A stretch of DNA of 44,813 bases, from NCBI GenBank assembly GCA_017987895.1, contig JAGNSU010000018.1, forward strand, positions 1-44,813, read 5' to 3'. Positions 97 through 1,351 of this stretch are shown here, piece by piece. The notes below the pieces were generated by a model. That model searched no databases and was not told the origin of the DNA. It was given only the letters and a program-made list of their open reading frames with translations. Numbering within the stretch: the first letter of the stretch is position 1; every line of letters begins with the position of its first letter. This stretch comes from Flavobacteriales bacterium (lineage in GTDB: Bacteria > Bacteroidota > Bacteroidia > Flavobacteriales_F > PHOS-HE28). Made by a program: the position numbers and the translations under genes.

Positions 97-104
97 TATT
101 TTTG
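97..104 (+). promoter_or_regulatory. Bacteroidetes-type -7 box of the exosortase unit
   Basis: TATTTTTG is an exact match to the Bacteroidetes primary-sigma -7 element TAnnTTTG. It ends 19 bases before the TTG chosen as start of the PID-CTERM gene. No clear -33 TTG was found at the expected spacing. Confidence 0.55.
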
Positions 105-123: not shown

Positions 124-348
124 TTGCGCATTCCCCTTCTGCTCCGCCTTCTCTTGGTTGTCGCCTTGCTCGCTTTCCCGATCGCCGGGGGGGTGTGGGC
201 ACAACCTCCGGTCGGAGGCCCGCCGCCATGTTGGCCGCCACCCTGTATCCCCATCGATGGTGGAGTAGGACTGCTGATCGCTGCTGGTGCTCTGCTGGGA
301 GGTCGCACCGCATGGGGTGTCCGTCGAGCTCGCAAGTCCTCAATCTGA
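124..348 (+). CDS. small PID-CTERM exosortase substrate (74 aa)
   Basis: This is a tiny exported protein that looks like a substrate of the exosortase encoded directly downstream. Residues 1-26 form a signal peptide ending near WAQ. Residues 27-42 are a short Pro/Cys-rich stretch with Cys36 and Cys41. From residue 43 come the PIDGG motif, a hydrophobic helix (about 48-60) and an Arg/Lys-rich tail, which is the tripartite layout of exosortase sorting signals. After removal of both ends only about 18 residues would remain. The start is a TTG: the frame is open to the window edge without an ATG, and the -7 box at 97-104 supports a start here. The stop lies five bases before the exosortase ATG, so the two are probably co-transcribed. 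The PID-CTERM name rests on memory of that NCBI family; the function of these peptides is unknown to me. Confidence 0.75.
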   Translation: MRIPLLLRLLLVVALLAFPIAGGVWAQPPVGGPPPCWPPPCIPIDGGVGLLIAAGALLGGRTAWGVRRARKSSI

Positions 349-353
349 GGCGC

Positions 354-920
354 ATGGCCTCCCTGTCCGCTCCGCAGGCGGCATGGCGCGATCCTTTGGT
401 CCGCTTTTTCGCTTTCGCAGGCTCGCTTTATCTGGGTTGGTATCTGCTCTACGACTTGGTGATACACCCCTGGGGTGTGCTGGACCGGGCCTTGATCGAC
501 CAATTGATCCGGCTGAGCGGGGCGATCTTAAAAGGCCTTGGAGAGACCTTGATCCCCGAACCGGCCAATGCCGAGATGATCCGGACCATCGGCGTGGAGG
601 GCGGGCACTTGCTTTGGATCGGGGACCCGTGCAACGGCTTGAGCATTTTCGCGGTGTATTTGATCTTCCTTGCGGCCTACCCCGGCCCCCGCGTCCACAA
701 AACGTGGTTCGCGCTCATCGGTCTGCTGAGCATCCATATGATCAACGCCCTACGCATCGTGGTTCTCTGTCTGGTGGTGAAAGTGGATTATGAGCTTCTC
801 AACTTCAACCATGACTACACCTTCTATGTGATCGTGTACGGCTGGGTCTTTTTGCTCTGGTACTTGTGGGTGAAGCGTTTCGCCAACCGCGCTGTGCCCC
901 CGGTCCCCGCATCGGCATGA
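354..920 (+). CDS. xrtF: exosortase family protein, XrtF type
   Basis: This is a multi-pass inner-membrane cysteine transpeptidase-like enzyme (188 aa) predicted to cleave C-terminal sorting signals. The three expected catalytic residues are visible: Cys93 in DPCNGLS, Arg134 in NALR and His153 in NHD, each at or next to a membrane helix. Hydrophobic segments lie at about 18-37, 97-110, 117-142 and 156-173. The ATG at 354 is chosen because upstream residues in this frame overlap the PID-CTERM gene and look non-coding. The flanking PID-CTERM substrate and XrtF-associated membrane protein identify the subtype. Exosortase activity is inferred from family membership; no cleavage site is directly shown. 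Confidence 0.87.
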   Translation: MASLSAPQAAWRDPLVRFFAFAGSLYLGWYLLYDLVIHPWGVLDRALIDQLIRLSGAILKGLGETLIPEPANAEMIRTIGVEGGHLLWIGDPCNGLSIFAVYLIFLAAYPGPRVHKTWFALIGLLSIHMINALRIVVLCLVVKVDYELLNFNHDYTFYVIVYGWVFLLWYLWVKRFANRAVPPVPASA

Positions 921-1351
921 ACCGTCGCGGGGGCATCGCGTTGCTGGTCGCCGTGGCCGTTGTGCTGGGGGCTTTGCGGGAGTTCCTCTTCGTGAACTTG
1001 AACTACCAATTGGACCATGTGGCCCGCGGCACCCCCTTCTCTTATGCGCATTCGCTCTTTCAAGGATGGACCCAAGGCCTCGGGGTCGCTGGGCTCACCG
1101 CGCTCAAATGGGCCGCCGCGTTCTTCTTCGTCCTGCTGATGACAGGCCTCTCCGTTCTTGCCGCCCGACTGCTCTTCGGCGATCATCGCTACCTACGCCT
1201 CATCGCCGTCGCGGTGGGTTGCACGGCCCTGCTGGCCCTGCTGCTGCATGTTCTTTCATTGGAGATGGCCGCCGTGAAGCTGCTCCACGCGCTCCAATAC
1301 CCGGTTATGCTTCTGGCCTTGGTGCTGATCCGTCCCTTGGCACCACCGTGA
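917..1351 (+). CDS. exosortase F system-associated membrane protein
   Basis: This 144-residue protein has about four hydrophobic segments (roughly residues 6-20, 54-76, 90-110 and 115-138). It starts with an ATGA overlap on the xrtF stop, so translation is probably coupled. Small membrane proteins of this type sit beside xrtF in Flavobacteria and are named only by that association. The N-terminal pattern of one helix, then LREFLFVNLNYQLD, then a polar loop fits my memory of that family. Its role could be assembly or substrate presentation to the exosortase. No catalytic motif is visible. Confidence 0.75.
   Translation: MNRRGGIALLVAVAVVLGALREFLFVNLNYQLDHVARGTPFSYAHSLFQGWTQGLGVAGLTALKWAAAFFFVLLMTGLSVLAARLLFGDHRYLRLIAVAVGCTALLALLLHVLSLEMAAVKLLHALQYPVMLLALVLIRPLAPP

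Follow-up and report, generated by a model that had tools for sequence, protein, structure and literature searches.

A candidate single-substrate exosortase X unit that would release a short proline-rich peptide in a lineage of Flavobacteriales

Exosortases have been linked to the attachment and retention of exopolysaccharide (PMC12188702, PMC9850573). In the classic PEP-CTERM/exosortase systems (EpsH, CrtB), substrates combine a signal peptide, a short motif, a helix and a basic tail, and there is a link to polysaccharide genes. These features recur at the locus described here, but the classic systems differ from it in having many substrates, sizeable passengers and the motif PEP instead of PID; Nostoc punctiforme has 35 PEP-CTERM proteins (PMC12188702). 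A two-gene enzyme/partner unit like the one reported here is formed in Bacteroidota by exosortase F (XrtF) and the Exosortase F-associated protein (Fjoh_1448/1449), and PMC10936215 describes both as required for biofilm in F. johnsoniae and gives the system a role in biofilm and surface colonisation. The targets of XrtF were reported to be unknown (PMC12188702). One sorting enzyme beside one substrate is found in MrtJ and its single JDVT-CTERM protein (PMC11980579), although MrtJ is a CPBP-family protease unrelated to exosortases. NCBIfam holds a set of models for exosortase X (XrtX), PID-CTERM proteins and the XrtX-associated protein (NF046081, NF046080 and NF046082, respectively), in which, as at our locus, the enzyme is followed by the partner and the passengers are short and Pro-rich. 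The terms PID-CTERM and exosortase X were not found in the open-licence literature searched, and in two open-licence papers naming both exosortases and type IX secretion, the passages on exosortases describe no such link between the two. The exosortase substrates of Bacteroidota are poorly known, and a comparison of genomes yields concrete candidates.

The stretch of DNA analysed here as a whole, hereafter the window, comprises 44,813 nucleotides from a Flavobacteriales bacterium. Its exosortase locus has the following features:

97 to 104, forward strand: match to the Bacteroidota-type promoter element TAnnTTTG, TATTTTTG
124 to 348, forward strand: gene of the PID-CTERM microprotein, 74 aa, TTG start, presumed exosortase substrate
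124 to 201, forward strand: predicted N-terminal signal peptide, M1-A26, variable in sequence and called by eye
202 to 258, forward strand: predicted mature peptide, QPPVGGPPPCWPPPCIPID, Q27-D45, 19 aa, between putative cleavage sites
259 to 345, forward strand: remainder of the PID-CTERM region, made up of GG, a short hydrophobic helix and a tail rich in Arg/Lys; XrtX is presumed to remove it
354 to 920, forward strand: exosortase gene of the XrtX type, 188 aa (NF046081, E 4e-48; Cys93, Arg134, His153)
917 to 1351, forward strand: gene of the XrtX-associated membrane protein, 144 aa (NF046082, E 1e-8, below the cut-off)

A preliminary description of this DNA had given the same coordinates, a 74-residue protein with Cys36 and Cys41, a 5-nt gap before the enzyme and the Cys93-Arg134-His153 set, all of which the sequence bears out. 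The microprotein stop (348) is separated by 5 nt from the xrtX ATG (354), and xrtX shares its last 4 nt with the partner gene.

The best models for all three proteins were those of the NCBIfam XrtX set, with scores at or below the curated cut-offs. For the enzyme, NF046081 gave 163.4 bits, the best of all models, against a cut-off of 170, which 27 of 40 matching lineage genomes reached. The XrtF model (TIGR04128) gave 60.6 bits, which is 103 bits lower and short of its cut-off of 90. We therefore replaced the XrtF label of the preliminary description by an XrtX-type assignment. The third gene, previously taken for an XrtF-associated protein, also had the XrtX-associated model NF046082 as its best match (34.9 bits, cut-off 75), and its position after xrtX was kept in all 40 lineage loci, including the locus truncated by a contig end. 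The enzyme scored 43.7 bits with the exosortase/archaeosortase superfamily model (TIGR04178, cut-off 23) and has the Cys-Arg-His residues and the multi-helix membrane character of that superfamily. Cys93, Arg134 and His153 were invariant in 46 of 46 XrtX proteins from the lineage and six further Bacteroidota families. No PDB sequence match was found at E up to 1; a structure model of moderate confidence (mean pLDDT 74) was helical, and a fold search with it returned common helical-bundle matches only, none of them significant.

The reading frame of the microprotein (124–348) has no in-frame ATG and starts with TTG. It bears the PID-CTERM hallmarks, namely P-I/V-D-G-G, a short helix and a basic C-terminal tail, and NF046080 aligned to residues 43–61 with 25.7 bits in the protein scan (cut-off 26) and with 27.5 bits, over the cut-off, in the genome search. 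No further PID-CTERM protein of the window genome exceeded the cut-off in the genome search, where the other matches were weak (E 0.05 or worse). The signal region is a hydrophobic stretch that closes in AQ in nearly all orthologues; the signal-peptide and exosortase cut sites were placed by eye. TAnnTTTG was present 15–60 nt 5' of the start in 35 of 38 orthologous genes, compared with a mean of 0.45 and a maximum of 4 of 38 in shuffles, so that the microprotein gene probably heads the transcript.

The conservation of the trio was followed in 45 genomes, mostly metagenome-assembled, of one genus-level group of the window's order. XrtX was present in 40 of them and a good PID-CTERM match in 39, with the NF046080 cut-off exceeded in 37; both were absent from the remaining five genomes. 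In all 39 intact loci, a single good PID-CTERM gene per genome lay directly 5' of xrtX, the arrangement that the preliminary description had proposed to look for in relatives, with xrtX in the place of xrtF. In the 40th genome (G011), xrtX lies at the contig start and the upstream gene falls outside the assembled sequence. Conservation in 39 of 39 loci and codon-level selection rule out a chance open reading frame and support the proposed enzyme–substrate pairing. The preliminary description would have dropped its substrate call had the frame not been conserved in relatives or had purifying selection been absent, and the call withstood both checks. In most lineage loci glyA lies downstream of the trio. 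A sulfotransferase-like gene (1389–2186; PF03567, 23.4 bits) lies between the exosortase unit and glyA in the window; among lineage loci it was found only there and in G037, and it was rejected as a member of the unit. A mobile or plasmid origin was likewise rejected, with no plasmid match and no PHROGs match.

Selection was concentrated in the predicted mature peptide. Across 38 complete orthologues, pooled pN/pS by Nei-Gojobori counting, not tree-based, was 0.146 for the mature part, which includes the PID recognition residues, 0.43 for the GG-helix section, 0.69 for the signal peptide and 0.86 for the tail. The mature peptide is thus the most constrained section, and selection keeps the peptide, not the tag, in support of this side of the earlier interpretation. 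It was 18–22 residues long and always had two Cys, and CWPPPC and P[IV]DGG were invariant in the 38 orthologues, while synonymous positions varied freely; the Pro/Cys stretch, singled out in the preliminary description for comparison among relatives, is therefore conserved. CWPPPC was not found in the PID-CTERM proteins of the other XrtX genomes sampled. It therefore does not serve as a general recognition motif, and it more likely belongs to the function of the product than to enzyme recognition, although it could be the means by which the XrtX of this lineage in particular recognises its substrate. We inspected off-locus matches to the 18-base pattern, two of them in the window genome and the rest in G004 and G006; these were out of frame with longer covering ORFs and were rejected as CWPPPC peptides. 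None of the pattern matches in 25 other genomes of the phylum coincided with any of the PID-CTERM positions listed for the phylum.

In G089, G166 and members of family f2, a Cys pair lies right before P[IVL]D with a spacing that differs from the window lineage. Such variation in spacing is easier to reconcile with a disulfide than with a metal site of fixed geometry, and the Cys pair of the mature peptide probably forms disulfides. As a separate observation, a Cys pair with its second Cys 0–4 residues before P[IVL]D and with variable spacing was seen in several lineages (L180 of G089, L119 of G166, L230, L235 and L245).

The genome search yielded 37 lineage loci that extend at least 0.6 kb upstream of the trio, and each of them has a divergent gene for a Wzc-like chain-length regulator/kinase there. 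In the one locus scanned, its Pfam domains were Wzz, GNVR and AAA_31, and an ABC-2 transporter permease lay beyond it. Because the contig ends where the window starts, the window's own Wzc gene would fall outside the sequence. G089, which belongs to another family of the class, showed the same divergent Wzc-like layout together with a Cys-pair peptide (CGPPFGPPC-PIDGG). This neighbour, together with earlier papers that connect exosortases with the retention of polysaccharide (PMC12188702, PMC9850573), favours a polysaccharide-related role. The conserved block has no genes beyond the trio, which is flanked by Wzc on its upstream side and in most loci by glyA on the other, and a RiPP or cyclisation enzyme at the locus was accordingly rejected.

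PID-CTERM matches (E up to 0.01) were collected from 395 genomes of the phylum and were present in 73, with up to nine per genome. Nearly all sampled proteins were short, with passengers of about 10–25 Pro-rich residues, e.g. QPGLPSAPSQAPIDGG, and with a few longer exceptions (G159, family f37). The preliminary description was right that the substrate has almost no passenger, the predicted mature peptide being 19 aa, but proteins with little besides the sorting signal are the rule in the PID-CTERM family, and this locus does not stand out in that respect. What sets the window lineage apart from the NCBIfam set is one PID-CTERM gene per genome, fixed before xrtX, with an invariant CWPPPC; outside the lineage, PID-CTERM genes mostly lay away from xrtX, and most PID-CTERM proteins of XrtX genomes contained no Cys.

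Elsewhere, the PID-CTERM gene had a different neighbour. A first batch of loci (L093–L131) drew attention to genes with a type IX secretion system (T9SS) type A sorting domain. In a second batch (L182–L221), hand-picked from strong matches and mostly from family f25, such a gene lay immediately upstream in 35 of 40 loci. The binomial probability of this count at an expectation of 2.5% is about 1e-50, a value inflated because most loci come from that one family. The pattern was also seen in f2, f3, f10, f44 and f52, and it was absent from the loci sampled in f23, f37 and the window's lineage. With either Wzc genes or T9SS cargo genes as neighbours, the locus context suggests that these microproteins function where surface polysaccharide and type IX secretion meet. 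Some PID-CTERM genes without a T9SS neighbour followed fumarase/aspartase-like or metK genes, each arrangement occurring twice (L110/L213 of f23; L208/L221 of f25, g96).

We consider it fairly probable, from the sequence comparisons, that the trio is a dedicated single-substrate exosortase X module and that the peptide itself is the product, passed to an acceptor in the envelope. Dozens of relatives have kept the trio intact and next to the gene of a regulator of polysaccharide chains, and for this reason the peptide is the likely product. The microprotein would be exported by Sec and lose its signal peptide, and its C-terminal helix would hold it in the inner membrane. XrtX, with Cys93 as the putative nucleophile and Arg134 and His153, would then cut at or beside PID-GG and join the C-terminus thus created, on a peptide of about 19 residues, to the acceptor, most likely either a lipid or the polysaccharide of the neighbouring Wzc-type cluster. 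What results would be a short Pro-rich peptide with two Cys that the cell displays on its surface or couples to it.

The same strict one-to-one linkage with the enzyme, the near absence of a passenger and the fact that the genome has no second PID-CTERM protein above the cut-off would also suit a microprotein that acts as partner or regulator of XrtX (an activator, placeholder or pilot substrate), with the real substrates bearing a different, unrecognised tag elsewhere. The pilot or marker role raised in the preliminary description would look much the same in these comparisons. We regard this as unlikely, since other Bacteroidota pair the same enzyme type with one to nine PID-CTERM genes scattered over the genome, as fits substrates and not a subunit, and since selection is strongest on the very portion that would be released. 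It is less likely again that the peptide docks or bridges type IX secretion cargo instead of polysaccharide, with one peptide serving many cargos in this lineage. The window genome has at least 150 T9SS type A sorting domains, and the cargo neighbour found in 35 of 40 loci elsewhere stands out against only 61–79 such domains per genome (four of the sampled Bacteroidota); yet the lineage gene is never beside T9SS cargo and always beside Wzc and xrtX, and families f23 and f37 also have PID-CTERM genes free of this neighbour.

Lipidation of the second Cys, with XrtX merely trimming the tail to leave a surface lipopeptide, as proposed for MYXO-CTERM and myxosortase, appears improbable. An invariant Cys does lie shortly before GG, and MYXO-CTERM cleavage requires conserved Cys residues before the helix (PMC11980579). 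However, the scarcity of Cys among the PID-CTERM proteins of XrtX genomes does not fit this reading, exosortases are unrelated to the CPBP protease myxosortase, and one lipid would leave two invariant Cys unexplained.

XrtF-type enzymes are found together with short Pro-rich LPID proteins. We took such proteins from ten Flavobacteriaceae that have XrtF-type scores, built a model from them and searched 80 further genomes with it; exosortase presence in these genomes was defined by a loose NF046081 match, and f5 scores of about 96–120 bits were read as XrtF. The model matched 27 of the 80 genomes, that is, 27 of 44 with an exosortase match and none of 36 without (Fisher p 8e-10, relatedness uncorrected); within the Flavobacteriaceae-like family f5, the counts were 18 of 18 and 0 of 10 (p 8e-8, likewise uncorrected). 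This co-occurrence makes the short LPID proteins candidates for the targets of XrtF. The loci concerned (L222–L250 and L133–L155, from genomes of the class, mostly f5) encode short Pro-rich LPIDxx proteins, whose co-occurrence with an XrtF-type exosortase match is perfect across these 28 f5 genomes, 18 having both and 10 neither.

The comparison predicts that XrtX and XrtF both act on microproteins that release a short Pro-rich peptide. A wider proposal, which we offer as doubtful, is that PID-type exosortases (XrtX and, by extension, XrtF) mainly conjugate Pro-rich peptides of about 10–25 residues to surface lipid or polysaccharide rather than sort proteins. Such peptides would be adaptors that hold polysaccharide (the Wzc-linked CWPPPC type of the window lineage) or individual T9SS cargo (most other Bacteroidota sampled) at the cell surface. 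The number of T9SS type A sorting domains itself differed among genomes, with 136 in G005 and at least 150 in G000 and G041, versus 61–79 in four other Bacteroidota.
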